A DNA stretch of 64,000 nucleotides from Aquimarina aggregata (lineage in GTDB: Bacteria; Bacteroidota; Bacteroidia; Flavobacteriales; Flavobacteriaceae), in NCBI RefSeq assembly GCF_001632745.1, contig NZ_LQRT01000013.1, positions 620,001 through 684,000 of the forward strand, written 5' to 3'. Numbering within the stretch: the stretch's first letter is position 1; every line of letters starts with the position of its first letter. Below are positions 16,640 through 33,252 of this stretch, piece after piece. The position numbers were made by a program, and so were the translations under genes. Under the pieces are notes generated by a model that did not search any database, had not been told where the DNA came from, and saw nothing but the letters and a program-made list of their open reading frames with translations.

Positions 16640-17014
16640 TTACTTCTTAGGGCGTTTTGCACCATACTTAGATCTACGTTGAGTTCTACCTTCAACACCT
16701 GCGGTATCTAAAGCTCCTCTAACGATATGATATCTAACTCCTGGTAAATCTTTTACCCTTCCACCTCTAACTAATACTATCGAGTGCTCCTGGAGATTGT
16801 GACCTTCACCACCGATGTACGCATTTACTTCCTTACCATTAGTTAACCTAACACGAGCTACTTTACGCATAGCTGAATTTGGTTTTTTAGGTGTAGTAGT
16901 ATAAACACGTGTACAAACACCGCGGCGTTGCGGGCACGAATCCAAAGCAGCCGATTTACTCTTCTTAGTTATTTTGGCTCTACCTTTTCGTACTAATTGT
17001 GAAATTGTTGGCAT
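16640..17014 (-). CDS. rpsL: 30S ribosomal protein S12
   Basis: 124 residues. S12 lies at the decoding centre. It starts [12 protein letters not shown] and keeps [13 protein letters not shown] and [14 protein letters not shown]. The lysines at positions 43 and 88, changed in streptomycin-resistant mutants of other bacteria, are wild type. It is the first gene of the superoperon, 53 bases from the predicted transcription start. Confidence 0.99.
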
Positions 17015-17052
17015 AATTTGCTTTACACTATTTTTAAATAATTTTATAATAT

Positions 17053-17066
17053 CCCTTTTTAAAGGG
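17053..17066 (-). promoter_or_regulatory. 5'-terminal hairpin of the superoperon mRNA
   Basis: The minus-strand RNA reads CCCTTTAAAAAGGG, a self-complementary run that folds with 5 to 6 pairs. The predicted transcription start is only about one base upstream, so the hairpin would sit at the very 5' end. Such 5' hairpins protect mRNA from decay in other bacteria; the role here is inference. Confidence 0.4.
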
Positions 17067-17069
17067 CTG

Positions 17070-17099
17070 CAAAGGTAGAAATATTTTTCAGCAAATCAA
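17070..17099 (-). promoter_or_regulatory. Promoter of the str-S10-spc-alpha superoperon
   Basis: On the minus strand TTG (17099-17097) is followed after 19 bases by TACCTTTG (17077-17070). This is a full match to the Bacteroidota primary-sigma consensus TTG, N17-23, TAnnTTTG. It would start transcription near 17067, about 53 bases before rpsL. Confidence 0.8.
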
Positions 17100-17487
17100 A
17101 TCCTAAGGGATTAATTTTCAAATAGATTTAAAAAGCAACAAAATAAGTACACAAGAACTACTGTTTTTCCGTATGGCAAAAAATCGCATTGCTAAAACTC
17201 AATTCCTACATTTCAAACATAGACTACTACAAGATTTTAGAGACACTTCCAAGCTACGCTTATTTAACAGAAACATAATTTAATCTTTTGAAAAACAGCA
17301 TATTACGTGTAAAAATTAAAATATCATACGCTAAAAAAAGAAAAGAAAAAAACCTACTACTCTAGTCTCAATTACCCCTAATTACGAAAAAACAAAAAGA
17401 TTATTAAATTATTATAAATTAACAAACCTACACGTTAATAAACGTTAAAATATTCAAAAAAAAACCATTTTTATCGCTTTTTATTAT

Positions 17488-17507
17488 CAATTTTGTAAAG
17501 GCTAATT
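17488..17507 (+). promoter_or_regulatory. Promoter and 5' box of first susC unit
   Basis: The -7 element is CAATTTTG (17488-17495), one base off TAnnTTTG, inside the block ATTATCAATTTTG shared with the other two susC promoters. No TTG is present 20 bases upstream. GGCTAATT (17500-17507) follows at about position +3 of the predicted mRNA and is identical in all three units. Confidence 0.6.
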
Positions 17508-17525
17508 AAAATAAACACACAAATA

Positions 17526-20500
17526 ATGAATTTAACTAGGAGGCAAATTCTAATGCTTTTCATGGCATTAGTCGTGCAATTTTCTTTTGCACAAGAAACA
17601 ACCATAACTGGTAAAGTAACAGATGATAACGGTTCTCCCTTACCCGGAGTAAACATCATTATCAAAAACACAAACAATGGAACCCAATCAGATTTTGATG
17701 GATTATACTCTATTGAAACTTCTGCAGGAAACGTTCTGGTTTTTAGTTTTGTCGGCTTCACTAATAAAGAAGTTACCGTAGGAGCTAGCACTACTATTAA
17801 TGTACAACTTGATGCTTCAACTTCTCAATTAGAAGAAGTTATTGTAACAGCGCAGGGTATTAAAAGAGAGAAACAAGCTCTTGGATACGCTGTTGCAGAG
17901 GTAAAAAACGAACAATTAGAACAACGAGCAGAAGGTGATATTGGTCGAGTTTTACTAGGTAAAGCTTCAGGTGTTAACATTACACAGCAGAACGGATTAT
18001 CTGGTTCTGGAACAAACATCGTGATTAGAGGACTCAGCTCATTTAGTGGTAGTAATCAGCCTCTATTTATTGTTGATGGTGTTCCATTTAGTAGTGACAC
18101 AAACTCACAGGGTGGAAATGATGGCAATGGTCAAAATGACTTTATCGATGGAAACTCAGGATCTAGTAGGTTCTTAGATTTAGATCCTAATAGTATCGAG
18201 AGTGTTAATGTATTAAAAGGTTTAGCAGCAGCTACACTTTATGGAACTGCAGGAAGAAATGGGGTAATTCTAATTACCACAAAAAACGGATCTGCAGGCA
18301 ATGCCGTTAAGAAAAATGAGGTAACCATTACCTCATCGTTTTTCTTTAATGAAATAGCATCTTTACCTGATTACCAAGATAGCTTTGGTAACGGTTTTGA
18401 TCAAGCCTTTGGATGGTTTTTTAGTAACTGGGGACCAAGTTTTGAAAGAGATGGTGTAGCTGGTTGGGGTAATGGTATAAACGATGACCCAAATAGAGGA
18501 TTTAATCCAGACGGGACACTTGCACATCCATATAGCACAGCATCATCTGCCACTGGAATCCCAGCCGCTTTTCCAGAATTTGCAGGAGCTCGATATGATT
18601 GGAGACCTTATGACAGTGTAGATAATTTCTTCAAAACAGGTGCAGTATCTAATACCGCTATAAATTTTAGAGGCACTACAGCAGACAACACATTAAGTTA
18701 CAATGCAAACTACAGTTATCTTGAAGATGAAGGTTTTACACCTGGAAACAAGCTAAGAAGAAACACTCTAGGGTTTGGTGGAAGAGCTAAACTATCAAAT
18801 AAATTTACACTTTCAAATACTTTAAATTATTCTAAAACAGACTTTAGAACTCCACCCGTTGCAGCAAGTCAAGGTAATGGAGCTTTTGGTACTGGTTCTT
18901 CTGTTTTTGGAGAGTTATTTTTCACTCCTCGTAGTGTTGATTTAATTGGATTACCTTTTCAAAATCCAATTGATGGATCAAGTACTTATTACAGACAGAA
19001 TAATAGTATACAACATCCCTTATGGACAGTAAACAATGCTCAAAATAGACAAATCACAAATCGTGTTTTTGGTAATGGAACTTTGCAATACGACCTTTCT
19101 GAAAATTTAAATTTAGTGTACCGATTTGGACTAGATAACTATACCGAATCTAACACGAATCAACAAAACCGAGGAGGAGTTAGTGATGATGCAGGTTTAC
19201 GAAGCGGTGTTTACCAAACGTGGACGAACATTAACACAATATTCGATCATAACTTTATCATAAATGGAGATTACTCTTTAAATGATGATGTTGGGATGAC
19301 ATTCAACGTAGGTGCTACATCAAGAAGAGAAATTTTTGAACGAAATGGTGTCGCTAGTACAAACCAACAAGTTTTTAATGTATTCCAACACAAAAATTTT
19401 GCTGTACAAGATGAGATAGAATTCCAACAAGAAAGAAATATTGTTGGTCTTTATGGTCAAGCAGATTTCGATTATCGAAGAATGTTATATGTAACTGTAG
19501 CAGGACGAAATGACTGGGTGTCAAATTTAAGTACAGAGAATAGATCTATATTCTACCCTAGTGCAAGTATGTCTTTTCTTCCAACTACAGCTTTTAAGGG
19601 GATAAAAAGTGAGAACGGTATCAATTACTTAAAAGTGAGAGCTGGATACGGAACCTCTGCAAACTTCCCTACAGGTTTTCCTATTGCAACAACCTTACTT
19701 ATAGATACACAAAACTTTAGAGATTCAGGAAGAGATATCGTAACAAACTCTGCAGCACCAAGATTAGGTAATCCAGATTTAAAACCAGAACGATTAAACG
19801 AAATCGAATTTGGTATCGAATCCCGTTTCTTCAAAAACAGAATCAGCTTAAACACTTCATACTACAGTAGAATCACAAAAGATTTAATCATTGATCGACC
19901 TCTTGACAATTCAACAGGAGCAACTATACGAAGTGAGAATATTGGAGAAATTAAAAGTACAGGTTTCGAAGCAGATCTTGGAGTTGATATTGTTACATCA
20001 CCAGATAATGGTTTTACATGGAATACAAACATCAATTTTACCACATCAGAAACAACTGTTGAGGATCTAGGAGCAGATACAGATATCATTGTATATTCAG
20101 GTTTTTCAAACTTAGGAAATGCAGCTATCGAAGGAGAACCTCTTGGTGTTATCGTAGGAAGCAGAATTCAAAGAGACGACGATGGGAATTTCTTGGTAAA
20201 TAGTGCTGGAAATTATGTTGAAGAAGAAGGGACTTTTGTTATTGGAGATCCGAATCCAGATTACTTATTGAATGTTTCAAATTCTTTTTCTTATAAAAAT
20301 TTCAATCTTAGTTTTCTTTTCGCTTTTGTAAAAGGTGGAGATATTTATTCTAGAACCGTATCTACATTATTAGGTAGAGGACTTACAACAGACACAGAAG
20401 ATCGTATAAATACTTTTATTCTTCCTGGTGTGCAAGAAGACGGTTCACCAAACAATGTTCAAATTAACAACTCAACATTTTACTTTTCAAATGTATTATT

Positions 20501-20783
20501 TGGACCTGATGAATTAGGTGTATTTGACGGAACAGTTCTTAGACTACAGGAACTTTCTTTAGGTTATAGTCTACCTACTAAATTTTTAGATAACACTCCT
20601 TTTGGAGCTGTTAGTATGAACTTAACGGGATATAACCTATGGTTTAATGCCTTTAATATCCCTGATGGAACTAATTTCGACCCTAATGTAGCAGGGCTAG
20701 GTGTAGGAAATGGTCGAGGTTTTGACTTTTTAAATGGACCTAGTTCTAGAAGATATGGTGTAAGTATCAAAGCTTCATTCTAA
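17526..20783 (+). CDS. SusC-family TonB-dependent outer-membrane transporter (first unit)
   Basis: 1085 residues. A signal peptide of about 22 residues ends FSFAQ. A carboxypeptidase-like regulatory domain (TITGKVTDDNGSPLPGVNI, about 25-105), a TonB plug (about 115-250, with LFIVDGVPF and NGVILITTKN) and a 22-strand-type barrel ending in an aromatic residue (SIKASF) follow. It imports a bound nutrient across the outer membrane using TonB energy, with its SusD partner 16 bases downstream as the lid. The substrate cannot be told from sequence, and no degradative enzyme is nearby. Two inverted repeats lie in the signal-peptide codons. Confidence 0.96.
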   Translation: MNLTRRQILMLFMALVVQFSFAQETTITGKVTDDNGSPLPGVNIIIKNTNNGTQSDFDGLYSIETSAGNVLVFSFVGFTNKEVTVGASTTINVQLDASTSQLEEVIVTAQGIKREKQALGYAVAEVKNEQLEQRAEGDIGRVLLGKASGVNITQQNGLSGSGTNIVIRGLSSFSGSNQPLFIVDGVPFSSDTNSQGGNDGNGQNDFIDGNSGSSRFLDLDPNSIESVNVLKGLAAATLYGTAGRNGVILITTKNGSAGNAVKKNEVTITSSFFFNEIASLPDYQDSFGNGFDQAFGWFFSNWGPSFERDGVAGWGNGINDDPNRGFNPDGTLAHPYSTASSATGIPAAFPEFAGARYDWRPYDSVDNFFKTGAVSNTAINFRGTTADNTLSYNANYSYLEDEGFTPGNKLRRNTLGFGGRAKLSNKFTLSNTLNYSKTDFRTPPVAASQGNGAFGTGSSVFGELFFTPRSVDLIGLPFQNPIDGSSTYYRQNNSIQHPLWTVNNAQNRQITNRVFGNGTLQYDLSENLNLVYRFGLDNYTESNTNQQNRGGVSDDAGLRSGVYQTWTNINTIFDHNFIINGDYSLNDDVGMTFNVGATSRREIFERNGVASTNQQVFNVFQHKNFAVQDEIEFQQERNIVGLYGQADFDYRRMLYVTVAGRNDWVSNLSTENRSIFYPSASMSFLPTTAFKGIKSENGINYLKVRAGYGTSANFPTGFPIATTLLIDTQNFRDSGRDIVTNSAAPRLGNPDLKPERLNEIEFGIESRFFKNRISLNTSYYSRITKDLIIDRPLDNSTGATIRSENIGEIKSTGFEADLGVDIVTSPDNGFTWNTNINFTTSETTVEDLGADTDIIVYSGFSNLGNAAIEGEPLGVIVGSRIQRDDDGNFLVNSAGNYVEEEGTFVIGDPNPDYLLNVSNSFSYKNFNLSFLFAFVKGGDIYSRTVSTLLGRGLTTDTEDRINTFILPGVQEDGSPNNVQINNSTFYFSNVLFGPDELGVFDGTVLRLQELSLGYSLPTKFLDNTPFGAVSMNLTGYNLWFNAFNIPDGTNFDPNVAGLGVGNGRGFDFLNGPSSRRYGVSIKASF
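17550..17592 (+). promoter_or_regulatory. Two adjacent inverted repeats in signal-peptide codons of first susC
   Basis: CTAATGC (17550-17556) pairs with GCATTAG (17565-17571) across 8 bases, and GTGCAA (17574-17579) pairs with TTGCAC (17587-17592) across 7 bases. The same two hairpins occur at exactly the same distance from the start codon in the other two susC genes, with compensating base changes. They are visible directly; function is unknown. Confidence 0.55.
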
Positions 20784-20799
20784 CAAAAAACATAAAATC

Positions 20800-22518
20800 A
20801 TGATTAAATTAAGATTATCATATAAAATTTCAATAGTAACGACCTTAATACTAGGATTACTATTCATATCATGCGAAAGTACTGAGTTGGATTTAGCAAA
20901 TGACCCAAACCAGTTAACCCCTGAACAATCTAATCCCGATCTATTTTTGAATTCTATTCAAGTGGATTTTGGAAAAGTAGTTGAACGTTTTGGGGCGATC
21001 GCAGGTCAAGTAACTCGAATCGATTATATGAATGGTAGGGATTACCCTAACACATATTCTCCTGCAGACTTTAATGACGTATGGAGTGGTTCTTATCAAT
21101 CTACCGGTGTTTCTTTCAACGATCAATTTGGTCATAGCCAAACATTTAATGGCATACTAGCAGATATTAGAGCGTTAACTCCCCTAGCAGAAGAAGGAGA
21201 ACTATACAGACATACCGCCATAAGCCAAGTGATCGAAGCATATACTATAGTAACATTAGTAGATTTTTTTGGTGACATCCCTTATACTGAAGCATTACAA
21301 GCTAATATCGGAAATTTCAATCCTGAACCTGATGCAGGTAATGTTGTTTACCAAGCTGCATTAAACCTATTAGAAGATGCAATTGTAAATTTTGGTCGTA
21401 CTCCACAAAATGATCCTATTAATGATTTCTTTTATGATGGAGATTGGGATAAATGGATTAAAGCTGCCAATACATTAAGAATGAAAATTTACCTACAACA
21501 AAGGCTTGTTGATAGTGATGCCATTTCTAGTTTTAATGCTATTGTTACAGCAGGGAATTATATTCAAACAGTTGACGAAGATTTTCAATTTACTTGGGGA
21601 ACAAATGTTATACAACCAGACAACCGTCATCCTAGATATGCGAACAATTACGAAGGAGATGGTGCCGATGAATATATGTCTAATTGGCTAATGAATTTAA
21701 TGCTCACGACGGATGACCCAAGAATTAGATACTACTATTACAGACAAACTAACGCTGTACCAGGTGCCGAAATTGCACCAAATGAAGAAACACTAAGTTG
21801 TTCTTTAGAAAGTGCACCCCAACATTATATTGACGGAGGGTTTACTTTTTGCTTCTTGAATAGCGGTTACTGGGGTAGAGATCATGGTGACGATGATGGT
21901 ATTCCACCAGACGGGTTCTTAAGAACTAATTTTGGAGTATATCCAGCAGGAGGAAGATTCGACGACAGTAGTTTTGAAGGAACTTCTCAAGGAGATGGAG
22001 GTCAAGGAGCTGGTATTACTCCTATCATGTTATCATCTTGGGTAGATTTTATGATTGCAGAAGTTGCCATGGAAGAAATGAATATAATGGCTGCTAGAAC
22101 TGCTTTAAGTAATGGAATTACTAAATCTATTACAAAAGTTCAGACTTTCAGTAGTCTAGACCCTTCAGCAAATTTATCTTTCGAACCAGATGCAACTGCC
22201 GTATCGAACTTTGTTAATGAAAGAACAAGTAGTTTCGATTCCGCAACAACAGATCAAGAACGCTGGAATGCTATCGCTCAGCAATATTGGGTTGCTTTAT
22301 TTGGGAACGGTGTTGATGCTTATAATTTTTACAGAAGAACAGGTTATCCAAATACATTACAACCTAATGTAGAACCAAATCCAGGAAACTTTATTAGGTC
22401 TTTTCCTTACCCGGCAGATTTAACAACTAACAATTCATCTGTTAGTCCTAAAGACACTAATCAAAAAGTATTCTGGGACAATAACCCAGACTCTCCAACA
22501 TTTCCTAGCTCAAATTAA
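20800..22518 (+). CDS. SusD/RagB-family outer-membrane lipoprotein (first unit)
   Basis: 572 residues. The lipobox cysteine is at residue 25 (LLFISC), followed by ESTELDL; acidic residues after the cysteine fit the surface-export signal described for Bacteroidota lipoproteins. The body resembles the SusD-like group that starts with DPNQLTPEQSNPDLFLNSIQ, and has the helical repeat with LVDFFGDIPYTEAL and a C-terminal WVALFGNGVDAYNFYRRTG. SusD proteins cap SusC and capture the ligand. It is 16 bases after its SusC and ends at the start of the next reading frame. Confidence 0.95.
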   Translation: MIKLRLSYKISIVTTLILGLLFISCESTELDLANDPNQLTPEQSNPDLFLNSIQVDFGKVVERFGAIAGQVTRIDYMNGRDYPNTYSPADFNDVWSGSYQSTGVSFNDQFGHSQTFNGILADIRALTPLAEEGELYRHTAISQVIEAYTIVTLVDFFGDIPYTEALQANIGNFNPEPDAGNVVYQAALNLLEDAIVNFGRTPQNDPINDFFYDGDWDKWIKAANTLRMKIYLQQRLVDSDAISSFNAIVTAGNYIQTVDEDFQFTWGTNVIQPDNRHPRYANNYEGDGADEYMSNWLMNLMLTTDDPRIRYYYYRQTNAVPGAEIAPNEETLSCSLESAPQHYIDGGFTFCFLNSGYWGRDHGDDDGIPPDGFLRTNFGVYPAGGRFDDSSFEGTSQGDGGQGAGITPIMLSSWVDFMIAEVAMEEMNIMAARTALSNGITKSITKVQTFSSLDPSANLSFEPDATAVSNFVNERTSSFDSATTDQERWNAIAQQYWVALFGNGVDAYNFYRRTGYPNTLQPNVEPNPGNFIRSFPYPADLTTNNSSVSPKDTNQKVFWDNNPDSPTFPSSN

Positions 22519-22553
22519 TGCTAAGAATAAATAATATTGGATTTACCAAAAAC

Positions 22554-23612
22554 ATGAAAAACATGAAAAACATAACAAAATATTTAAGTCTTACATTACT
22601 CAGCATACTTACTTTAGGATGTAGCGGAGATGATAAGATTGTAGATAGAATTCTAGACGATGTGACCAGTGGAGCAGTATTACGTACGAGAGACACTGAC
22701 AATAATATGGTTTACAATAATCTTACAGGAGAATTTACTGCGACATCAAATTACATCCTTACACTCGAAGAACAGGACGCTAGTAATGGGGATTTACTTG
22801 ATAACATTGAAATTTTTGCTCGGTTTGTTGAAAACACAAAAGATGACGCAAATAGCGATGGCACTATTGACGATGATAACCTTACTACAACCGAAGGGTT
22901 AATTAGAACTTTGACAATAGCAGATTTCACGACAGGACCAAGAAACTTACCAGAATCTGTAGTGACATTCACTGCAGATGAACTTGTAGCTTTTACTGGT
23001 GTTGACGAAAGTAAGATTCAAGGAAGTGATGATTTCGCACTTAGGTTTAAAATAAACTTAACAGACGGTAGATCTTTTTCTGAAGATGATGTAAATGGTA
23101 ATGTATCAGGTGGATCGTATTTCTCATCCCCTTTTGCATATAGAAGCAGCATTAGTTGTGATATTACAGAAAGTCTTGCAGACACCTACACGTATACAGT
23201 AACCTCTTTACAATCAGCCCCAGGTGGAAGAAGCCAGTGCCAAACAGATCCGGGAGATCTCCCAAGCGGTACTGTAACTTGGTCCGAAACCGATACTCCA
23301 GGTGAATATTCAACATCAGATATTAGTTTTGGTCAATTTGACAACTGTTACGTTGATACTTTTAGTAAAATCGAATTTGATGAAATTTTAATCACGTGGG
23401 ATTGCACCAACTTAAAAGCAGGTGGAACTATCGAGACAGTAGAAAACGATACTAACAAAGAGATAGATTTTACATACGTATATACTATCAAAGAAACTTC
23501 AGGATCAGATATGACTATTGACTTTAGTAATTCTGAAGGAGATCGAGGTACAGTCGTACTTACAAGACCAGCAGGCAAAGTATGGCCAATACTTCTTAGA
23601 AGAATGGAATAA
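22554..23612 (+). CDS. Surface lipoprotein in SusE-like position, unknown family
   Basis: About 352 residues from the ATG at 22554 (MKNMKNITKYLSLTLLSILT, lipobox cysteine at 23, then SGDD). The frame opens at 22518 with an ATG overlapping the susD stop, but that gives a poor signal peptide. I do not recognise the family. The mature protein is rich in Asp, Thr and Ser, looks all-beta, and has four more cysteines in the second half (SCD, SQCQ, DNCY, WDC) that could form two disulfides. As third gene of a SusC/SusD unit it may help bind ligand at the surface; this is inference. A strong terminator follows. Confidence 0.8.
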   Translation: MKNMKNITKYLSLTLLSILTLGCSGDDKIVDRILDDVTSGAVLRTRDTDNNMVYNNLTGEFTATSNYILTLEEQDASNGDLLDNIEIFARFVENTKDDANSDGTIDDDNLTTTEGLIRTLTIADFTTGPRNLPESVVTFTADELVAFTGVDESKIQGSDDFALRFKINLTDGRSFSEDDVNGNVSGGSYFSSPFAYRSSISCDITESLADTYTYTVTSLQSAPGGRSQCQTDPGDLPSGTVTWSETDTPGEYSTSDISFGQFDNCYVDTFSKIEFDEILITWDCTNLKAGGTIETVENDTNKEIDFTYVYTIKETSGSDMTIDFSNSEGDRGTVVLTRPAGKVWPILLRRME

Positions 23613-23643
23613 CATATCTTATTCACAAATTTAAATTAGCTAG

Positions 23644-23675
23644 AAAAGGTTTCTCATTTTGAGAAACCTTTTTTT
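23644..23675 (+). terminator. Intrinsic terminator of first SusC/SusD unit
   Basis: AAAAGGTTTCTC (23644-23655) and GAGAAACCTTTT (23661-23672) form a perfect 12-base stem around ATTTT, with the T run continuing to 23675. It lies 31 bases after the lipoprotein stop. Confidence 0.9.
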
Positions 23676-23858
23676 ATTTTAAATTATCACTTCGAATACT
23701 CAAATTCTTACCAAAATTATCATAGCACCCACACACCCAACACCTTAAATCCAAACACACTACTCACAACTTCAACTCAATACATTTTCTTTAGGAAAAC
23801 AATAACATTTCTTGTAGATAATTTTATCATAAAAAGGCATTTTTAGTCGGAAAAAAAA

Positions 23859-23902
23859 TTGTCTACTTACATAATTATCATCAATTTTGGCTCAGGCTAA
23901 TT
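23859..23902 (+). promoter_or_regulatory. Promoter and 5' box of second susC unit
   Basis: TTG (23859-23861), 20 bases, then CAATTTTG (23882-23889), one base off the flavobacterial consensus. GGCTAATT (23895-23902) follows at about +4 of the predicted mRNA. Sequence and spacing match the other two susC promoters. Confidence 0.65.
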
Positions 23903-23916
23903 CTAACAATTAACAA

Positions 23917-26900
23917 ATGAAAACAAACTGTAAAGCAATTTTAGCGCTGCTTATGGCGCTAATTGTGCATTTTAGTTATGCACAAGAAAAAACTGTAACC
24001 GGAAAAGTTACAGATGATAGCGGACTTCCTCTTCCTGGAGTGAATATCGTTATCAGAGGAACAAACAATGGAGCACAATCTGATTTCGACGGACTCTACA
24101 GCATTCAGGCCTCTGAAGGCAACATCTTAGTATTTAGTTATCTTGGATTTGCTAGTCAAGAGGTAACTGTAGGTGCTAGCAACACAATCGATATGCAGTT
24201 ACAGGCTTCAACTGCAGAGCTAGACGAAGTTGTAGTCACTGCTCTTGGAATTTCAAGGGAAAAAAAATCTCTTGGGTATGCAGTACAAGAAGTAGATGGT
24301 AACGCCATTGCCCAAACCAGAAGCACTAATGCACTTGGAGCATTAACTGGTCAAGTTGCTGGGGTACAAATCAACAATGCTGCTGGTAACATTGGAGGTT
24401 CTACAAGAATCCTTATTAGAGGTGCAGGTTCAATAACACAAGAAAACAGACCTTTAATTGTAGTTGACGGAACACCTCTTGACAATTCGAATTACAACGA
24501 CGAAGACACTCAAGATGGTGGAGGTGGTAGAGACTTTGGTGATACAGGTTTCGACATTAACCCTGATGATATAGAAAATATATCAGTACTTAAAGGAGGT
24601 GCAGCAGCAGCTCTTTATGGTAACCGTGCCAATAATGGAGTTATTATTATCACGACCAAAACAGCTAAAGATGGTAAAGCAGAAATAGTTGTAAACTCTG
24701 GTGTTTCGTTTGAAAGCATTAATATTTTCCCTAAAGTACAAAAACTATATGGTGGAGGTGCTGGAGATCCAGGAACAATTGGCCAAAGTAATTTTGCTAC
24801 TCAAAATATTAATGGAACTACATTTAATTTAGTAGACTATGCAACAGATGAATCTTGGGGTCCTAGATATGATCCTAACATATCTGTATTAGGATGGGAC
24901 GCCTTTGACCCTGAATTCCCTAATGAATTTCTTAACCCAAGACCATGGGTATATCCAAATGCTGATGCAGAAAGCTTCTACGATGTTGGAGTATCCCTAA
25001 ACAATAGTATTTCTTTTTCTAAATCTTTTGAAGATTCTAAACTAAGACTTTCTTTTTCTAATGTAAGAACTACAGGGATTATTCCTAATAGTGAGCTTGA
25101 AAAAACAACTATTAGTTTCAGTGGGTCGACTAAACTTTCTAAAAAATTCAGAGTAGATGCTGGTATTAACTATGTTATTACTGATGGTTTTAACCGACCA
25201 GAATCTGGATATGGCGATAATAGTTTAATACAAAAGTTCTACCAATTTGGTCAAACTTCTTTGGACTATGACAGATTAAGAAACTATCTTCTTCCAAACG
25301 GAAATCAGAGAACATGGAACAGAAGAGCATTTGATGATCCCACGCCAAGATTCTCGGACAACCCATATTGGACAATATTTGAAAACACCTCTGCTGATAG
25401 AAGAAACAGATGGTTTGGAAACACAAAATTCAAATATGATTTCACTGATAAAATCTCTGCATTAGGAAGTATCTTTTTAGATAGCTACGATTCTAAAATA
25501 AGCACTAGAGTTGCATCAGGGTCTCAAGCTCAATCAAGATATGACGAGGATATCAGAACTTTTCAGGAATTAAATTATGAACTACGTCTTCAGTACAACG
25601 AAAGTCTTTTTGAAGACAAAGTTAGTCTTAATGCTATTGTTGGAGCCAATAGAAGAAATTCTATTTTCTCTAGTCTTGAAGGAAACACAAGAGGTGGTTT
25701 AGCTGTTCCAGGTATTTACAACCTAAACAACTCAAACGAAGACCCTAGAATTATTGACACTGACGAAGAAAGAAGAACAAACAGTATCTTCGCCTCTGTA
25801 TCTTTAGGGTACAAAAACTTTCTTTATTTAGATGTTACAGGTAGAAATGACTGGTCTTCTACTTTACCTCCAGAAAACAATTCTTATTTCTATCCAGCAG
25901 TAACTGGTAGTTTTCTTTTCTCTCAATTAGTAGATGCTGGTTGGCTTTCGTATGGTAAAGTAAGAGGAAGTTGGGCAAGTGTAGGTAACGATACCGATCC
26001 CTATAGCTTAAGAAATGTATTCAATAACAGAACTGCTTTTTTTGGTAATATAAGATACACACAACCAGATGAGAATAGGAACCCAGATCTACGACCAGAA
26101 GAAAAGACAACTTGGGAAGTTGGTCTAGAAATGGCGCTCTTCAAAAATAGAGTACGTCTTGACGTCACCTATTACGACGAACTTACAGAGGACTTGATCA
26201 CACCAGTACAAATAGATCCATCTACCGGATACAGTTCTACATTTGTAAATGCTGGTAAACTATCAAATAAAGGTGTTGAAGCTCTTGTAACAGTTACACC
26301 TGTTCAAAACGAAAATTTTAGCTGGGACGTTACATGGAATTTCTCTAAAAATGTAAATGAATTAGAAGAATTAATTCCTGGAGTAGAAACTCTTGAAATA
26401 GCAAGGTTCCCATTTAATGGAGTAACACTTAATGCTGTTGTTGGTGAGCCGTATGGAGTTATACGAGGTACTAATTTTGTTTTTGACGACCAAGGAAATC
26501 GTGTCGTTGATGCTGATGGTAGATTTCTTGAATCTAGAAATGTTGAAAACCTAGGTAGTGTTTTACCTGACTATAACATGGGTATACGAAATACACTTAC
26601 TTATAAAAACATAAACTTTGGTTTCTTAATTGACATACAAGAGGGTGGTGTTTACAGATCATTAACCAATATTTGGGGTAACTATTCTGGTATTTTAGAA
26701 GAGACAGCGGCAAATAATATTCGTGAACAAGGTATTATTTTAGATGGTGTGACCGGAGATGTAACATTTAATGCCGATGGCACTTATACTGTAGCAAATA
26801 CCGCGCCCAATACAACTGTACTTTCTGCTCAACAATACGGGCAAGATCATTTCTTTAGAGCTGATGCTCAAAATGTATTTGATGCAAGTTATGTAAAATT

Positions 26901-27123
26901 AAGAGAAGTTACTCTTGGGTACTCATTACCAGCTAAATGGAGAGGACCTTTAAATACAATAAAATTATCATTGTTTGCAAGAAACCTATTTGTTTGGGGA
27001 TTAGCAAATGATAATTTTGACCCCGAAGTAGCAACTTCTGGAAGTGGAAACATTCAAGGTTCTGAGGGAGGTTCTTTACCATCTACAAGAAACTATGGTT
27101 TTAATCTTCAATTAAAATTCTAA
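23917..27123 (+). CDS. SusC-family TonB-dependent outer-membrane transporter (second unit)
   Basis: 1068 residues. The signal peptide ends HFSYAQ near residue 23. The regulatory domain (TVTGKVTDDSGLPLPGVNI) is close to that of the first unit, then comes the plug (ILIRGAGSITQENRPLIVVDG, NNGVIIITTK) and a long barrel ending NLQLKF. It should import a SusD-bound nutrient through the outer membrane with TonB energy. The barrel differs strongly from the first unit, so the ligands probably differ. SusD follows after 5 bases. Confidence 0.96.
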   Translation: MKTNCKAILALLMALIVHFSYAQEKTVTGKVTDDSGLPLPGVNIVIRGTNNGAQSDFDGLYSIQASEGNILVFSYLGFASQEVTVGASNTIDMQLQASTAELDEVVVTALGISREKKSLGYAVQEVDGNAIAQTRSTNALGALTGQVAGVQINNAAGNIGGSTRILIRGAGSITQENRPLIVVDGTPLDNSNYNDEDTQDGGGGRDFGDTGFDINPDDIENISVLKGGAAAALYGNRANNGVIIITTKTAKDGKAEIVVNSGVSFESINIFPKVQKLYGGGAGDPGTIGQSNFATQNINGTTFNLVDYATDESWGPRYDPNISVLGWDAFDPEFPNEFLNPRPWVYPNADAESFYDVGVSLNNSISFSKSFEDSKLRLSFSNVRTTGIIPNSELEKTTISFSGSTKLSKKFRVDAGINYVITDGFNRPESGYGDNSLIQKFYQFGQTSLDYDRLRNYLLPNGNQRTWNRRAFDDPTPRFSDNPYWTIFENTSADRRNRWFGNTKFKYDFTDKISALGSIFLDSYDSKISTRVASGSQAQSRYDEDIRTFQELNYELRLQYNESLFEDKVSLNAIVGANRRNSIFSSLEGNTRGGLAVPGIYNLNNSNEDPRIIDTDEERRTNSIFASVSLGYKNFLYLDVTGRNDWSSTLPPENNSYFYPAVTGSFLFSQLVDAGWLSYGKVRGSWASVGNDTDPYSLRNVFNNRTAFFGNIRYTQPDENRNPDLRPEEKTTWEVGLEMALFKNRVRLDVTYYDELTEDLITPVQIDPSTGYSSTFVNAGKLSNKGVEALVTVTPVQNENFSWDVTWNFSKNVNELEELIPGVETLEIARFPFNGVTLNAVVGEPYGVIRGTNFVFDDQGNRVVDADGRFLESRNVENLGSVLPDYNMGIRNTLTYKNINFGFLIDIQEGGVYRSLTNIWGNYSGILEETAANNIREQGIILDGVTGDVTFNADGTYTVANTAPNTTVLSAQQYGQDHFFRADAQNVFDASYVKLREVTLGYSLPAKWRGPLNTIKLSLFARNLFVWGLANDNFDPEVATSGSGNIQGSEGGSLPSTRNYGFNLQLKF
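23941..23983 (+). promoter_or_regulatory. Two adjacent inverted repeats in signal-peptide codons of second susC
   Basis: TTAGCGC (23941-23947) pairs with GCGCTAA (23956-23962) across 8 bases, and GTGCAT (23965-23970) pairs with ATGCAC (23978-23983) across 7. Both sit at the same codon positions as in the first susC, but three pairs are changed on both sides so that pairing is kept. Confidence 0.55.
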
Positions 27124-27128
27124 GAAAA

Positions 27129-28721
27129 ATGAAAAACACATATATAATATTATTTGTAGCAACAGTTATTACACTGTTGTCTACCTCATGTTCGGATGAT
27201 CTTGAGAATATAAACTCTAATCCCAACAACCCAGAGGTTGTGCTCACCAATACAATTTTTAACAGTGCAACTAAAGAATTGACAGATATTTCAAGAGGTG
27301 CCTTCTCTTCTGGACGAGCAGCCTTACCATGGATGCAGTATTGGGGGCAAAACAGTTATGCAGATGAAGATCGTTACTTGTATCGCGAATCTACTGCAGA
27401 AGATTTATGGGCTAATTATTATAGAGTTGGAACAGATCTAAAGAAAATAATAGAGCTTAACACCAATGCTGAAACTAGAGAACAAATGTCCTCTGTTGGA
27501 AATAATGATAATCAAATTGCTGCAAGTAGAATTATGCTATCATATATTTTTCATCAGTTAACAGATACATTTGGTGATGTACCTTACTACTCTTTTGGAA
27601 ACAATGATCCAAATTTTCAGGCATTAAATGTGGATAATGTATTATCCCCTGTTTTTGTAACACAACAAGAAATATATGCCGACATACTTTCTGAATTAAG
27701 AGCTTCCGTAAACATGCTTACTACTACAGAATCTGTATTTACTAGTGGGGATAATATTTTTGGCGGAAATGCAGAAAAATGGAGAAAATTTGCAAACTCT
27801 TTAATTTTAAGAGTTGCAAACCGATTAAGAAGCGTCGATGCCGCTGCAGCAAATGCAGCAATCGATGAAGCCATAGCTTCGGGAGTTTTTACATCTAATG
27901 CAGACAATGCTATTCAAGCTTATGAAAATACAGATGCTACCGGATCTCCTTTATACAGAGCCTATTTTGTTAATAACAGAACAGATTTTGGTGTAGCGGC
28001 TCCTTTTATTAATTTATTGAAGAATCGCACAGGAAACTTTGGTCCTGACCCAAGATTATTTCAATTTGCAGCACCAATTACAGTATCAATTGAGGACATT
28101 AGAGATCAAAATTACACAGTCTCTACTAATTTTGATGATTATGAAGGTGTTCCTTATGCGTTTGAAAGTGTAAATTTCATCAAGTTCACAAACTACTCAT
28201 TTCCTAGCGACCAAGTATTACGTGCCGATTATGGCGAAGTTTTAATGGAGTATGCCGAAGTATCTTTTATTATATCAGAACGTAATGGGTGGAGTCAAGC
28301 AGAATATGAGCAAGGAGTAAGAGCTTCTATGGAGCGTTGGGGTGTTGCGGATACAGACATCACAACATATATAGGTACTTTACCAGCTGCCTCAGAAGAA
28401 AACGTACTTACTCAAAAATATATTGCTTTATACATGCAGCCATATGAAGCCTGGGCAGAATACAGGAGAACAGGCTTTCCTCAGACATTACTGTTACCAG
28501 GACAAATGGCCAATTTAACTACAGCTCAAGCTGCTGATTTACCTACAGGATCTGCATCTACTTATACTTTTGTTCCTAGAGTATCAATTACAGATTTACC
28601 CACAAGATTGCGTTACCCAGTTACATTACAGTCTCTTAACGGAACCAATAGAGCTACAGCGGTTTCAAGATTAAGTGATGGTGATGTCATAACAAGTAAA
28701 CTGTTCTGGGATCAGAATTAA
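27129..28721 (+). CDS. SusD/RagB-family outer-membrane lipoprotein (second unit)
   Basis: 530 residues with a lipobox cysteine at residue 21 (LLSTSC) followed by the acidic stretch SDDLEN. Motifs match the SusD-like group: NSNPNNPEVVLTNTIFNSA, LTDTFGDVPYYSF, and the C-terminal YEAWAEYRRTGFP seen in these proteins. It should form the ligand-capturing lid on the SusC encoded 5 bases upstream. A terminator follows within 60 bases, so the unit has only two genes. Confidence 0.95.
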   Translation: MKNTYIILFVATVITLLSTSCSDDLENINSNPNNPEVVLTNTIFNSATKELTDISRGAFSSGRAALPWMQYWGQNSYADEDRYLYRESTAEDLWANYYRVGTDLKKIIELNTNAETREQMSSVGNNDNQIAASRIMLSYIFHQLTDTFGDVPYYSFGNNDPNFQALNVDNVLSPVFVTQQEIYADILSELRASVNMLTTTESVFTSGDNIFGGNAEKWRKFANSLILRVANRLRSVDAAAANAAIDEAIASGVFTSNADNAIQAYENTDATGSPLYRAYFVNNRTDFGVAAPFINLLKNRTGNFGPDPRLFQFAAPITVSIEDIRDQNYTVSTNFDDYEGVPYAFESVNFIKFTNYSFPSDQVLRADYGEVLMEYAEVSFIISERNGWSQAEYEQGVRASMERWGVADTDITTYIGTLPAASEENVLTQKYIALYMQPYEAWAEYRRTGFPQTLLLPGQMANLTTAQAADLPTGSASTYTFVPRVSITDLPTRLRYPVTLQSLNGTNRATAVSRLSDGDVITSKLFWDQN

Positions 28722-28748
28722 TTAGATTGTCATCTAAAAAATAAAATT

Positions 28749-28777
28749 AAAAAGAGTCTGATTTTCAGGCTCTTTTT
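28749..28777 (+). terminator. Intrinsic terminator of second SusC/SusD unit
   Basis: AAAAAGAGTCTGA (28749-28761) pairs with TCAGGCTCTTTTT (28765-28777) with one U-G wobble and a 3-base loop, and the T run closes it. It lies 27 bases after the susD stop. Confidence 0.85.
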
Positions 28778-28922
28778 GTTTTAAAACACTCTTCAAATGC
28801 CAATCAAACCCCAAATAAAATATTACACAAATCTCTCAAAAACCCCTACTATAACGTTATAGTAAGATTTTAATAAGTCACGTTCCCTATTACTCAATAA
28901 TTCAAATTTTAATACTAAAAAG

Positions 28923-28966
28923 TTGTTTTATAAAGATATTATTATCATTTTTGGAACTGGCTAATT
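28923..28966 (+). promoter_or_regulatory. Promoter and 5' box of third susC unit
   Basis: TTG (28923-28925), 20 bases, then CATTTTTG (28946-28953), one base off consensus. GGCTAATT (28959-28966) follows at about +4 of the predicted mRNA. Layout is the same as in the second unit, to the base. Confidence 0.65.
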
Positions 28967-28981
28967 CAAATAAATTGTAAA

Positions 28982-31798
28982 ATGAGAACAAAGTTTAGTG
29001 GAATTTTAACGCTATTTCTAGCGTTTATTGTGCAATTCACTTTTGCACAAGAAAAAACAGTTTCAGGTACTGTAACCGACGATAAAGGTTTACCTCTACC
29101 TGGAGTTAATGTAATTATTAAAAACACTGCGAACGGTACACAAACCGACTTTGATGGTAACTATTCCATCACTGCGAATAAAGGTGCTGTATTATCCTTT
29201 AGTTATGTAGGATTTCAGGTTATTGACAAAGTAGTAGGCGATGGGGATACTGTTAATGCCCAATTAGCGCCATCTGCCGCAGAACTTGAAGAGGTAGTAA
29301 TTACAGGTCAAGGTTCGGGAATTTCTAGAAGAAAACTTTCAACTACTGTAGATTTTCTTACAGCAGACGAAGTTGATAAGCTTCCTTCAAACCAAATCGA
29401 CCAATTATTACAATCTACAACGCCAAGTGCGCAGATTAGGTTAAGTTCTGGACAACCAGGTACTGCTGCTATTATTAGAACAAGGGGTGCTATTTCAGCT
29501 TCTTCTTCTGCTACTCCAGTAGTTATCATTGATGGTGTTCGTGTAGATAACCTTAACTCAAACCCACAACTTGGTCTTGCAACAGGTGGTGCAGATGTAT
29601 CAGCTCTTGCAGATATCCCTGTTGAATCTATTGAAAAAATAGAATATATAAAGGGTGGTGCTGCAACTACATTATATGGTGCCGATGCGGCAAATGGTGT
29701 TATCCAGATTATCACTAAAAAAGGTACTTCAGGAAAAGCTCGTTTTTCATATGAAGCAAGAGTAGGTGTTATCAAAGCTACTGATGATTATTTATGGTAT
29801 GAAAGAACTGGTGAAGCATTATTTAAGCCAGGACTTTCCATAGAACATAAAATAGGAATCAATGGTGGTAATGAAAAAGTAACATACAACTTTGCTGGTA
29901 GTTTATATGCTGATGATTCATTTAACTTATTAAATGAGCAAGTACGAAGAAACCTTTCTTTCGGTCTAGGTGCTCAGGTTAATGACAAGTTAAGATATCA
30001 AGGTTCTTTTTCTTATGTAGGATTTGAATCAAATCTTGATTATAATGCCAATACTAGTCTTTCAAGATTTTCTGCATTTGAAGGTGGTGGTCGTGGAAAT
30101 CTAGATGAATTAACCGATGCTCAGTGGCAAGCTGAATTAGCTCGTTCTAATGCTATCGGTGAGGAAGTATCTATAAACAATACCGTAAATCGTCTTACGA
30201 ATTCAAATAAATTTATCTACGATTTTACAGACAATATCCAGGCAAACGCTACAATTGGTGTTGATACAAGAACTCAGGTTCAAGAAGAAAACCAAACAAA
30301 TGCCTTTCAAATAGCAACTGGATCCATTGCAGCTGGTACAGCAGATCAAGCAGTGCTTAATAGATTAATAAGAAATGCTTTTACCGTAACAGGGGATCTT
30401 AACTTTACACACAGAGGAAGAATAGATAATTTTGAATTTGTTACAGTTTTAGGTGGTCAATTTTTTAGATCAACAGACAGACAATACCAAACCAGTGGTT
30501 CTGGTGGTGTTGATGGTACTAATGACCTTGGTTTATTTCCAACCCAGACAACAGATGATTTCTTCTTAGAAAATGCAAACTACGGTATATATTTCTTAGA
30601 GAATATCGGTATCTATGATGTAGCGTTCCTTGAATTTGGAGCTCGTTTAGATCAAAATACACAAGCTGGTGATGATACAGATCCATTATTATTACCTAAG
30701 ATAGGTATTACTTATAATATATCAGATCATGATTTTTATTATGATAGCGGTATAAGTAAAGTATTATCTACCGTTAAACTTAGAGCTAACTATGGTGAAG
30801 CAACAAACTTTGCTCAAGCATTCTCAGAAGATAGAACATTCGCTCTTAATCCATTTTTAGGAGGACCTTCATTTACATTTAATAATCCAGGAAATCCAGA
30901 TCTTGTATCGGAAACAGTAATCACCACTGAATATGGTATAGAGTTAGGGTTTTTTCAGGATAGAATTAACTTAAGTGGTACTCGTTATGTAGCTACAACT
31001 GAAGATGCATTATTTACTCCTCCTGCATTACCATCATCTGGTCAATTAGATCAAATAAAGAATATTGGAGAAATTAAAAATGAAGGATGGGAATTTGCTC
31101 TAAGCGCAGATGTAATTAAAACTGAAAAACATGCTTTAAACATAAATGCTTCATACAACATTAACGATAACATAGTAGTTAGTACTGGTGGAGCTCCTGC
31201 ATTTAACGTAGGTGGATTTAATGTAATTGGTGCATGGGTTGAAGAAGGGCAGAGTCTTGGATATCTAAGAGGTACAAGTTCTGTAAGACAAGCTGATGGA
31301 ACATTTGCTCAAACTGCAAATGCAGCATTAGGTGATACTTTTGCTCCTAACTTTGGATCATTTGGTTTTAATTATACTTGGAACAACAAGTTAAATATAT
31401 TCATGACTGGTGATTATCAATTTGGTGGTAAGATTGTAGATTTAAGTTTCTTATTAAGACACTTAAGAGGTGTAGATGACACAGGTATTCCTGCAGATCT
31501 TATTGGAACTACTAGCCCTTTTAATTATGTAAACTTCTTTACTTTTGACAACGATTTTATAAAAATTAGAAATATTGGAGCAAGTTATTCTTTCGGAGAC
31601 GCTTTAGGTTTATTTAATGATTTAAAAGTTGGATTTACAGTAACTAATCCTTTCAATTTTGGAATAGATGGTCAATTTGATCCAGAAACAACTGGTTCAG
31701 GTATTGGTAACCAAAATGGATTTGGTAGTGGTGGATTTGCTTATGGTACAGAATCTGCTCCAAGAATATATATGACGTCTCTTAGATTCCAATTTTAA
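28982..31798 (+). CDS. SusC-family TonB-dependent outer-membrane transporter (third unit)
   Basis: 938 residues, shorter than the other two. The signal peptide ends QFTFAQ; the regulatory domain (TVSGTVTDDKGLPLPGVNV) and plug (PVVIIDGVRVDNLNSNP, ANGVIQIITKK) are intact, and the barrel ends SLRFQF. After the regulatory domain it has GSGISRRKLSTTVDFL, so it belongs to a different SusC subgroup. Its SusD partner starts 23 bases downstream and is also divergent. The substrate is unknown. Confidence 0.95.
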   Translation: MRTKFSGILTLFLAFIVQFTFAQEKTVSGTVTDDKGLPLPGVNVIIKNTANGTQTDFDGNYSITANKGAVLSFSYVGFQVIDKVVGDGDTVNAQLAPSAAELEEVVITGQGSGISRRKLSTTVDFLTADEVDKLPSNQIDQLLQSTTPSAQIRLSSGQPGTAAIIRTRGAISASSSATPVVIIDGVRVDNLNSNPQLGLATGGADVSALADIPVESIEKIEYIKGGAATTLYGADAANGVIQIITKKGTSGKARFSYEARVGVIKATDDYLWYERTGEALFKPGLSIEHKIGINGGNEKVTYNFAGSLYADDSFNLLNEQVRRNLSFGLGAQVNDKLRYQGSFSYVGFESNLDYNANTSLSRFSAFEGGGRGNLDELTDAQWQAELARSNAIGEEVSINNTVNRLTNSNKFIYDFTDNIQANATIGVDTRTQVQEENQTNAFQIATGSIAAGTADQAVLNRLIRNAFTVTGDLNFTHRGRIDNFEFVTVLGGQFFRSTDRQYQTSGSGGVDGTNDLGLFPTQTTDDFFLENANYGIYFLENIGIYDVAFLEFGARLDQNTQAGDDTDPLLLPKIGITYNISDHDFYYDSGISKVLSTVKLRANYGEATNFAQAFSEDRTFALNPFLGGPSFTFNNPGNPDLVSETVITTEYGIELGFFQDRINLSGTRYVATTEDALFTPPALPSSGQLDQIKNIGEIKNEGWEFALSADVIKTEKHALNINASYNINDNIVVSTGGAPAFNVGGFNVIGAWVEEGQSLGYLRGTSSVRQADGTFAQTANAALGDTFAPNFGSFGFNYTWNNKLNIFMTGDYQFGGKIVDLSFLLRHLRGVDDTGIPADLIGTTSPFNYVNFFTFDNDFIKIRNIGASYSFGDALGLFNDLKVGFTVTNPFNFGIDGQFDPETTGSGIGNQNGFGSGGFAYGTESAPRIYMTSLRFQF
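29008..29048 (+). promoter_or_regulatory. Two adjacent inverted repeats in signal-peptide codons of third susC
   Basis: AACGC (29008-29012) pairs with GCGTT (29021-29025), with two more inner pairs possible (to 29014/29019). GTGCAA (29030-29035) pairs with TTGCAC (29043-29048) across 7 bases. Registers relative to the start codon are the same as in the first and second susC. Confidence 0.55.
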
Positions 31799-31821: not shown

Positions 31822-33252
31822 ATGAAAAAAATATCAATATATATCTTAGCAATCGGTCTATTGATAGGTTGTACAGATAACCTAAAGGATGCTACAGATT
31901 TCACATCAGTAACTAATCCAAACTTAGATGAAGCCGCAATTCTTGGAAAAGAAAATTCTGCTACAATATGGCTAACAGGATTGCAACGTCAGACAGCAAA
32001 TGTGCTAAATGAAGCTGTAATGCTAGCTGAACTTGGATCTGACAACTATGTTAACACTCAGACATTTTTTGATCAATTCTTAGACGCTCTAGAAATAAGA
32101 ACAGATGATCCTGAAATAGAAGATGTACAATTTCAAATTGCAAGATTAAGAGTAATGGCTAAATTTGGTCTTGAATCAGTTGGACCAGCAGATCCAGCTT
32201 ATGATGCCGCTACTGAGGCTTCTTTTAATTTCTTTGAAGGGCTATCTTATTTATATGCTGCAATGTACTTTTCTGCATTACCACAGGAAGAGGGAGGTGC
32301 TGTAGTATCTGATATTGATAACTATGCTAGTGCAATCGCATCATTTGATGCAGCAATTGCTGCTGATCCTCAACCGCAATATCATCTTGCCAAAGCCCGA
32401 GCTAATTATTATTTAGGTAATCAAGCTGAGGCGGTTGCTGAAGCAACTGCTGCCATAGGCCTTGATGATGATTTCTTATTCTCTATTGAATTTGATGAAT
32501 TAAATCTTCCTGCTAATACGTTTGAAAGTGCATTATATGAAAGAGCTACATTTGATGACCTTCAACCACTACCAACATTAGACTTTTTAGATCCTAAATA
32601 TTCTTTTGTTGATCCAAATGTAGATCCTTCTATACACATATTCAAAGCGGAAGAAGCATATTTAATACTTGCTGAAGCTGCTCTAGCAGACAACAATGTA
32701 GCTGGAGCACGAACTAACCTCACTAGTTTATTAACAGTTGTAGGGACAAGAGAAGTAAGAGAAGTTGATGATTCTATTGAAGGTAGACCTGATGCAAGTT
32801 CTGCTTTTGCCTCTCGCCCTAAAACAGCAGATGTAGTTGTAAATGGAAGACCTGGATTAGTTCTAGATCGTCAAGCTGGTGACGTTATGATACCTTCTGT
32901 ATCTGGAACATCACTTGTACAAGGAGATGTTGATGCTATCACAGCTGCTAATGATGCTGCTTTAATTTTATTACATAGAACAAGACAAGAAATTTTTATT
33001 GCTGAAGGACTTCGTTTTGCAGATATGGGTGTTAAGTTAGTTGTACACCAAAATGAATTTAATCAAAATCCTAACATATCTGAAGGAGACCCTAGCACAA
33101 TAGCAGTAATACCTTCTTTCATTGATGCTGTTAAAGAAGATTTAGATGAAATCACCTATACAGAAGGAGCTACTACTGCAAGCACTACAGTAGATTTAAA
33201 TGTTCTTTTAGTACAAAATAAAACTTCAAGTCAAGTTTTACCTTTCCACTAA
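31822..33252 (+). CDS. Divergent SusD/RagB-like lipoprotein (third unit)
   Basis: 476 residues with a lipobox cysteine at residue 17 (LLIGC). The overall plan is SusD-like: an N-terminal helical part, a TPR-like stretch (YASAIASFDAAIAADPQPQY, about 165-215) and a C-terminal helix HRTRQEIFIAEGLRFADMGV that corresponds to the conserved end of SusD. The usual DPN start is changed to VTNPNLDEAAI and it is shorter than most SusD proteins. Position 23 bases after a SusC supports the call. A perfect terminator follows. Confidence 0.88.
   Translation: MKKISIYILAIGLLIGCTDNLKDATDFTSVTNPNLDEAAILGKENSATIWLTGLQRQTANVLNEAVMLAELGSDNYVNTQTFFDQFLDALEIRTDDPEIEDVQFQIARLRVMAKFGLESVGPADPAYDAATEASFNFFEGLSYLYAAMYFSALPQEEGGAVVSDIDNYASAIASFDAAIAADPQPQYHLAKARANYYLGNQAEAVAEATAAIGLDDDFLFSIEFDELNLPANTFESALYERATFDDLQPLPTLDFLDPKYSFVDPNVDPSIHIFKAEEAYLILAEAALADNNVAGARTNLTSLLTVVGTREVREVDDSIEGRPDASSAFASRPKTADVVVNGRPGLVLDRQAGDVMIPSVSGTSLVQGDVDAITAANDAALILLHRTRQEIFIAEGLRFADMGVKLVVHQNEFNQNPNISEGDPSTIAVIPSFIDAVKEDLDEITYTEGATTASTTVDLNVLLVQNKTSSQVLPFH

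Follow-up and report, generated by a model that had tools for sequence, protein, structure and literature searches.

A hairpin conserved within the signal-peptide codons of flavobacterial susC genes, and a candidate small RNA complementary to their leader

Three susC genes with a common 5′ end

The window analyzed here, a 64,000 nt stretch of the Aquimarina aggregata genome, contains a susCD cluster (window 11114-36332) located between minus-strand ribosomal genes (L2, L3, EF-G, S7) and RlmB/RarA. Three susC genes are present in this cluster; their positions and those of the features at their 5′ ends are given in Table 1. The 364-aa protein encoded after susD 1 (22518-23612) has no Pfam/NCBIfam match; for the gene that partners susC 3 (31822-33252), only a weak TPR match and no SusD family was obtained. 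The three SusC proteins are old paralogues, with 33-43% identity in their best local alignments and 23-26% in their C-terminal parts. Their first 63 residues are far more conserved, those of genes 1 and 2 being 67% and 63% identical, respectively, to those of gene 3.

Table 1. Positions of the susC genes in the window and of the features at their 5′ ends
Feature	Position	Strand	Remark
Leader of susC 1 (GGCTAATTAAAATAAAC...), predicted small-RNA target	17500..17525	+	box differs from the consensus GGCTAATTCAAAT at one base; predicted duplex −27.0 kcal/mol
susC 1, SusC/RagA family, 1085 aa	17526..20783	+	
Hairpin 1 of susC 1, signal-peptide codons, ATGC/GCAT core	17552..17569	+	
Hairpin 2 of susC 1, GTGCA..TGCAC	17572..17594	+	weaker support
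Leader of susC 2 (GGCTAATTCTAAC...)	23895..23916	+	predicted duplex −19.5 kcal/mol, rank 7 of 102 open ATGs
susC 2, SusC/RagA family, 1068 aa	23917..27123	+	
Hairpin 1 of susC 2, GCGC/GCGC core	23943..23960	+	
Hairpin 2 of susC 2	23963..23985	+	
Leader of susC 3 (GGCTAATTCAAATAAATTGTAAA)	28959..28981	+	16-nt perfect small-RNA complement; predicted duplex −29.1 kcal/mol
susC 3, SusC-like, 938 aa	28982..31798	+	scores 337.9 bits with TIGR04056 (curated cut-off 368.25)
Hairpin 1 of susC 3, ACGC/GCGT core (commonest form)	29008..29025	+	
Hairpin 2 of susC 3	29028..29050	+	

An earlier, sequence-only reading of this DNA had placed a short stem in the signal-peptide codons of each gene, and the stem is present as described. 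Its arms are AATGC/GCATT (17552-17556/17565-17569), AGCGC/GCGCT (23943-23947/23956-23960) and AACGC/GCGTT (29008-29012/29021-29025), coding base 31 is the last base of the first arm in every gene, and two pairs differ by double changes (T-A to C-G and A-T to G-C). Folding confirmed that the stem extends to seven pairs in genes 1 and 2, but gene 3, for which this had been overlooked, likewise reaches seven pairs (AACGCTA/TAGCGTT). Folding also recovered hairpin 1 in all three genes, together with a second hairpin, TTGTGCA..TGCACAA, located directly 3′ of it in each. Neither this second hairpin nor the leader box GGCTAATT that the three genes have in common (at 17500, 23895 and 28959) had been mentioned in the earlier reading. 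The two hairpins span coding bases ~26-70, inside the signal peptide. Folding by itself is weak evidence for the stems, as the difference between single sequences and their shuffles was modest (z scores of −1.66, −2.11 and −1.63, with 11, 3 and 14 of 200 shuffles equalling the native sequence).

In the A. aggregata genome SusC-like sequences were matched at 62 places and, among the 30 that were read, only the three window genes have this signal peptide. An Rfam scan of window positions 17000-30000 gave two matches at E up to 5, both far below gathering, and no known cis-regulatory RNA. A crossover site for a tyrosine recombinase was dropped as a candidate, because the spacers differ among the three genes, which are all encoded on one strand.

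Pairing and codon choice across relatives

Using model R1 (E up to 1e-4), the element was found in 170 of 199 sampled genomes of the family, corresponding to 169 of 198 genera, in one to five copies each that are often in tandem. All 22 R1 matches above 30 bits in 19 relatives coincided with SusC-like starts. When a class-wide sample of 149 genomes was searched, matches above 50 bits were obtained in four genomes, all of them Flavobacteriaceae. The remaining matches, of 20-31 bits, were rejected as noise outside the family; two of the first three were located at unrelated signal peptides ending in QLSFAQD and QFSFAQD. In six of six hand-picked genomes of other genera, S7/EF-G and RlmB/RarA flank the element, as they do in the window, and the SusC proteins encoded at this site are 27-46% identical to the window proteins over the aligned parts.

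Relatives were collected by a protein-pattern scan, which gave 80 loci, most of them labelled Flavobacteriaceae, and by a profile search, which gave paralogues from the genus. The aligned sequences share the leader R-CTAATTCAAAT, followed by ATG, then ACGCT..AGCGT, then GTGCA..TGCAC. In 62 distinct sequences (alignment A2, 62 of the 69 loci listed; L049-L053, L157 and L159 were left out), 91.2% of the cells of the two-hairpin structure are paired (94.5% for helix 1 and 88.3% for helix 2), and double changes occur in 6 of the 15 pairs. None of 500 shuffles reached the covariation score or the percentage paired; on two other measures, the number of double-change pairs was matched by 6 and that of pair types by 93 of the 500. 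A control structure slid by −2 contained 27 double-change cells versus 26, yet only 45.7% of its cells were paired versus 91.2%. The core of the stem exists as ACGC/GCGT, ATGC/GCAT, GCGC/GCGC, ATAC/GTAT, GTAC/GTAC, GTGC/GCAC and ACAC/GTGT, the last form occurring in three genera (L153 from G008, L273 from G283 and L307 from G209). Stem bases change freely while pairing is kept, the loops of the hairpins vary, and the distance from the start codon to the stem is constant among anchored genes.

Such a pattern could also be incidental, arising from signal-peptide conservation, codon bias or recent gene conversion, and the high conservation of the first 63 residues relative to the rest of the proteins (see above) would fit this explanation. 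We assessed it with two codon-preserving nulls, synonymous resampling and the exchange of codons between genes having the same residue (codon swap). Anchoring was possible for 213 of 219 loci (the exceptions being L127, L237, L246, L250, L259 and L282) and yielded 185 unique segments; L157, L159 and L187, which have a codon shift or no element, were excluded from the resulting 182-segment codon test and from the tree. In the 182 segments 96.2% of helix 1 cells are paired, compared with 57.2% after resampling and 94.2% after swapping (0/1000 each). Part of these loci had come from the structure model, and the test was therefore repeated on 107 unique protein-retrieved segments (L157 and L159 excluded), which provide the fairer test. 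The result was the same, with 95.7% of cells paired versus 57.0% resampled and 93.4% swapped (0/1000 each), and with all four core pairs being Watson-Crick in 96.3% of the 107 segments versus 1.6% and 72.4%, respectively.

The codons themselves tell against a by-product. At the stem Thr is encoded by ACG in 89 of 90 cases and Ala by GCG in 89 of 100, while each makes up 12% of such codons downstream, and all 11 GCA codons at the stem are opposite a U. Synonymous sites are strongly conserved from codon 2 to the end of the signal peptide, and most of this conservation is lost past the cleavage site. In addition, in a tree-based simulation that kept the number of changes in each column, discordance as low as that observed was found in 0 of 5000 replicates for each of the pairs 10-25, 11-24 and 12-23; the tree used (FastTree, downstream protein region, 193 rows) is weakly resolved, and strict independent-pair sign tests on it had too few supported pairs. 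As both codon nulls and the tree simulation fall short of the data, a coding by-product was rejected, and we regard it as barely conceivable. Thus, the stems exceed chance once many genes are compared, and the two nulls and the tree-aware simulation support the proposal of the sequence-only reading that selection acts on nucleic-acid structure and not on the signal peptide alone. Nor do other susC genes with the motif generally lose the pairing: 202 of the 213 anchored genes keep the six tested pairs of helix 1, although part of these loci were found via the structure model and the 107 protein-retrieved segments are the fairer test. Locus L159 is without the stem. The divergent susC gene L187 (G003), which has a leader box, fails the fixed-register test and by eye contains a different stem, TAACGTT/AACGTTA, near the same place.

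Two inverted repeats might also constitute DNA operator sites of a transcription regulator, and both dyads indeed follow the putative transcription start at a nearly constant distance. However, a DNA dyad should take G.T and A.C equally, whereas hairpin 1 contains 74 G.U and 2 A.C cells in the 107 segments (97 and 93 after resampling, 89 and 20 after swapping). Moreover, the half-sites differ from one A. aggregata paralogue to the next. Tolerance of G.U but not of A.C points to selection in the sense RNA strand, which favors the mRNA over a DNA operator; the operator was rejected on this unequal tolerance, and we consider it very improbable. Hairpin 2 alone would be compatible with an operator, having 53 G.U versus 41 A.C cells (57 and 85 resampled, 58 and 46 swapped). 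Its pairing in these segments, 90.1% versus 69.7% resampled and 89.5% swapped (1/1000), is hardly above the swap null. RNAalifold did not recover hairpin 2 either: on 45 sequences it drew hairpin 1 alone, and a fold of the leader together with the hairpins was rejected on the same result. Together, these comparisons across genomes demonstrate that hairpin 1 is a structure kept as sense-strand RNA by compensatory and synonymous choice; hairpin 2 is probably real.

The leader and a candidate small RNA

The sequence TAA[AT]TC is matched by 196 of the 213 leaders, and the commonest forms of the box are GGCTAATTCAAAT (64), GACTAATTCAAAT (53) and AGCTAATTCAAAT (31). According to passages of a study on Flavobacterium psychrophilum (PMC9723704), the median 5′ UTR of this species is 24 bp, and its sigma-A boxes, TAnnTTTG, lie at −12 to −5. 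These values indicate that the conserved leader block probably starts near the 5′ end of the transcript. When the 213 genes are scored for both features (box by regex), helix 1 and the box are found together in 184, intact helix 1 alone in 18, the box with an incomplete helix 1 in 9 and neither in 2. The genus paralogues L155, L156, L158, L160 and L185 have retained helix 1 and lost the box. This indicates that the hairpin and the putative small-RNA site are separable, and that the stems have a role of their own.

A search of 11 genomes for the box in front of an ATG revealed a second recurrent site in five of seven genomes of the genus, between a fabH-like gene and a gene for a TonB-dependent receptor. 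In eight aligned copies, the opposite strand of this site contains a TGTAAC..CGT(C/T)TA promoter motif, the invariant sequence ATTTGAATTAGCCTT and a terminator, and it constitutes a candidate small RNA. The A. aggregata locus is G000:C58:36131-36266, on the minus strand. Judged by its sequence, the promoter motif is of the ECF type, with a TGTAAC/TGCAAC/TGAAAC-like box ~16 nt before CGTC or AGTC, and some copies deviate (G348, G280). The predicted transcript ends at a Rho-independent terminator, detected by script, in 17 of 19 loci. Copies with other flanks were found in other genera; in loci of ~3 kb, FabH is present in 24 of 30 and the receptor in 20 of 30. Locus L438 (G211, minus strand) contains two tandem copies, each with its own terminator, and in G222 two matches lie close together.

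Model R3, built from the promoter and seed of 17 copies, matched 35 of the 199 family genomes at E up to 2e-5, 12 of these 35 having fed the model. On reading, the small RNA was convincing in 34 genomes, compared with 170 that contain the element; the match in G191 was unconvincing. The R3 model is probably too narrow, which would explain this gap, and the small RNA may also be absent in many genomes. At E up to 0.01, 113 of 199 genomes gave matches, which were not counted because some are partial and some correspond to the leader itself, read on the other strand. Among the small-RNA candidates, G323 was left out, the first ones for G370 and G375 were replaced by R3 matches, and the R3 match of G191 was not used. 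Within the genus, 18 of 21 Aquimarina genomes contain the small RNA, with one R3 match each (six are represented in the model; G011 by a partial match). The other three are G005 and G007, in which the R1 search detected no strong element, and G013, which is 78% complete and was judged from its best SusC start, which lacks the element. None of 15 genomes from other families of the order gave an R3 match.

Three other searches for the small RNA were abandoned. The first, with the leader complement ATTTGAATTAGC, gave scattered matches only somewhat above control; model R2, made from genus copies, mostly retrieved terminators in other genera; and the loose pattern CGTYTA..TTTGAATTAG matched 67 of 199 genomes, a number comparable to that of its control, and many of these matches fell inside open frames. 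An Rfam scan of four small-RNA loci gave eight matches, all below gathering, VrrA being far below and none being FopS or GibS (the Rfam copy may not include FopS). Among the open-access journal articles searched, we found no report of susC coding hairpins or of this small RNA.

The leader and the small RNA of the same genome match each other. In 29 genomes, the longest perfect duplex between them has a mean length of 18.7 nt, versus 15.1 (sd 0.55) for permuted combinations (0/20000; the permutation ignores kinship). A GGC leader occurs with a GCC small RNA in 17 genomes and a GAC leader with GTC in 7, and mismatches were found in G334 (GAC with GCC), G239 (AGC with GCG) and, by eye, G299 (AGC with GCA). 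Genomes G194, which by eye is GGC/GCC, and G299 were misparsed in the scripted comparison. The flanks co-change as well: CAAATTAAT occurs with ATTAATTTG (G211) and CAAATAAAATA with TATTTTATTTG (G273), and in G296 the perfect duplex reaches 26 nt and includes the AUG. Among the 102 open ATGs of the window, the predicted duplex ranks best at gene 3, followed by gene 1, and seventh at gene 2 (Table 1). Together, these alignments demonstrate that, as far as can be judged by comparing genomes, the primary sequence of the leader is conserved, and the leader and the small-RNA seed co-vary.

A possible control module at the 5′ end of susC mRNA

We think it rather probable that the first ~100 nt of the susC mRNA form a single RNA control module, in which an ECF-dependent small RNA would repress at the leader and the hairpins would keep the leader open. 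Such a module would consist of an unstructured leader of ~24 nt (RCUAAUUCAAAU..AUG) followed by two hairpins that the signal-peptide codons form. Production of the small RNA would depend on an ECF sigma factor, probably one that responds to envelope stress; by pairing with the leader, and in some genomes also across the AUG, the small RNA would stop translation of the outer-membrane protein. By locking the signal-peptide codons into local structure the hairpins might leave the leader and the start codon open for the ribosome and the small RNA, a step of which we are less sure. By analogy with known systems, the small RNA most likely blocks initiation at the leader: sigma-E small RNAs block initiation on porin mRNAs, as described in passages of PMC1804206 and PMC2628432, and FopS-10 of Bacteroides thetaiotaomicron blocks translation of susC at the start of the mRNA, according to part of PMC11697453. 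For the hairpins we favor a role in insulation, although the gain in accessibility would be small: predicted openness of leader plus start was 0.728 for native codons versus 0.670 for synonymous variants (60 of 193 box-bearing genes). Of the roles that the earlier reading had offered for the stem, that of a translation control element is still the best guess for the hairpins, that of a regulatory RNA target fits the upstream leader rather than the hairpin, and that of a protein operator is disfavored, G.U being tolerated and A.C not.

With the sigma-E-dependent porin repressors RybB, MicA and VrrA, as described in those passages of PMC1804206 and PMC2628432, the candidate shares an ECF-type promoter motif, one terminator and complementarity to the 5′ end of the mRNA of a major outer-membrane protein. 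It differs from them in its Bacteroidota host, its SusC target, its unrelated sequence and the conserved coding hairpins of the target, and it is known here from sequence alone. Pairing at the start of susC mRNAs is shared with FopS and GibS of B. thetaiotaomicron (PMC11697453, in part). According to the same passages, however, the 14 paralogues of FopS have canonical sigma-ABfr promoters, whereas the candidate is usually present in one copy and has an ECF-type promoter and a different seed. The combination of a primary-sigma promoter and many paralogues seen in FopS/GibS was not found here: the −10 motif is of the CGTC type, and each of the 18 genus genomes has a single R3 match. Rfp11 of F. 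psychrophilum is likewise described, in parts of PMC9723704, as a putative regulatory RNA that is strongly structured, conserved in other species and preceded by an ECF-type (SM6) promoter. Those parts name no susC target for Rfp11, which, compared by description only, may be the same gene as the fabH-linked small RNA.

A different role for the hairpins, which we regard as unlikely, is that of a tandem site for a nuclease such as RNase III, or for an RNA-binding protein such as an RRM protein similar to Bacteroides RbpB, that would set the life or translation of the susC mRNA. The conservation of the stems in genes without the leader box and their fixed distance from the start in anchored genes are in agreement with such a site, and passages of PMC11697453 report that RbpB binds a Bacteroides susC mRNA and alters its 5′ structure. 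However, the variable loops and the freely changing paired bases leave little sequence for a specific protein to recognize.

Alternatively, and in our view distinctly unlikely, the hairpins might act as a ramp or pause that slows early elongation, which would help to space the ribosomes or to direct the product to Sec when an outer-membrane protein is strongly expressed. The hairpins do lie inside the signal peptide. However, ribosomes pausing at codons 8-24 would do so before the signal peptide has left them, and slowed elongation would not explain the conservation of the leader. In agreement with strong expression, the SUS complex Fjoh_0403-0405 and OmpA are the two most abundant outer-membrane components of Flavobacterium johnsoniae according to part of PMC12611786, and our guess is that Fjoh_0403-0405 is the same locus as the element-bearing susC.

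Returning to a small RNA that acts at the leader, it is possible, and we suggest tentatively, that Flavobacteriaceae have a two-part circuit in which the ECF-sigma small RNA shuts off the mRNA of a main SusC transporter at its leader, and in which the tandem hairpins serve specifically as an insulator or gate so that the landing site stays accessible. If so, Bacteroidota would have an equivalent of the sigma-E/RybB circuit that targets SusC, a main type of outer-membrane transporter of marine polymer degraders. Part of the conservation of the signal peptide would then reflect the need to spell the hairpins, and the bases of a bacterial signal peptide, not its amino acids alone, would be under selection. 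Of 27 other SusC-like starts, one reaches a predicted duplex of −23.7 kcal/mol with the small RNA; it is located on another contig of the A. aggregata genome (L024, contig C2), is without the signal-peptide element and may be a further target.
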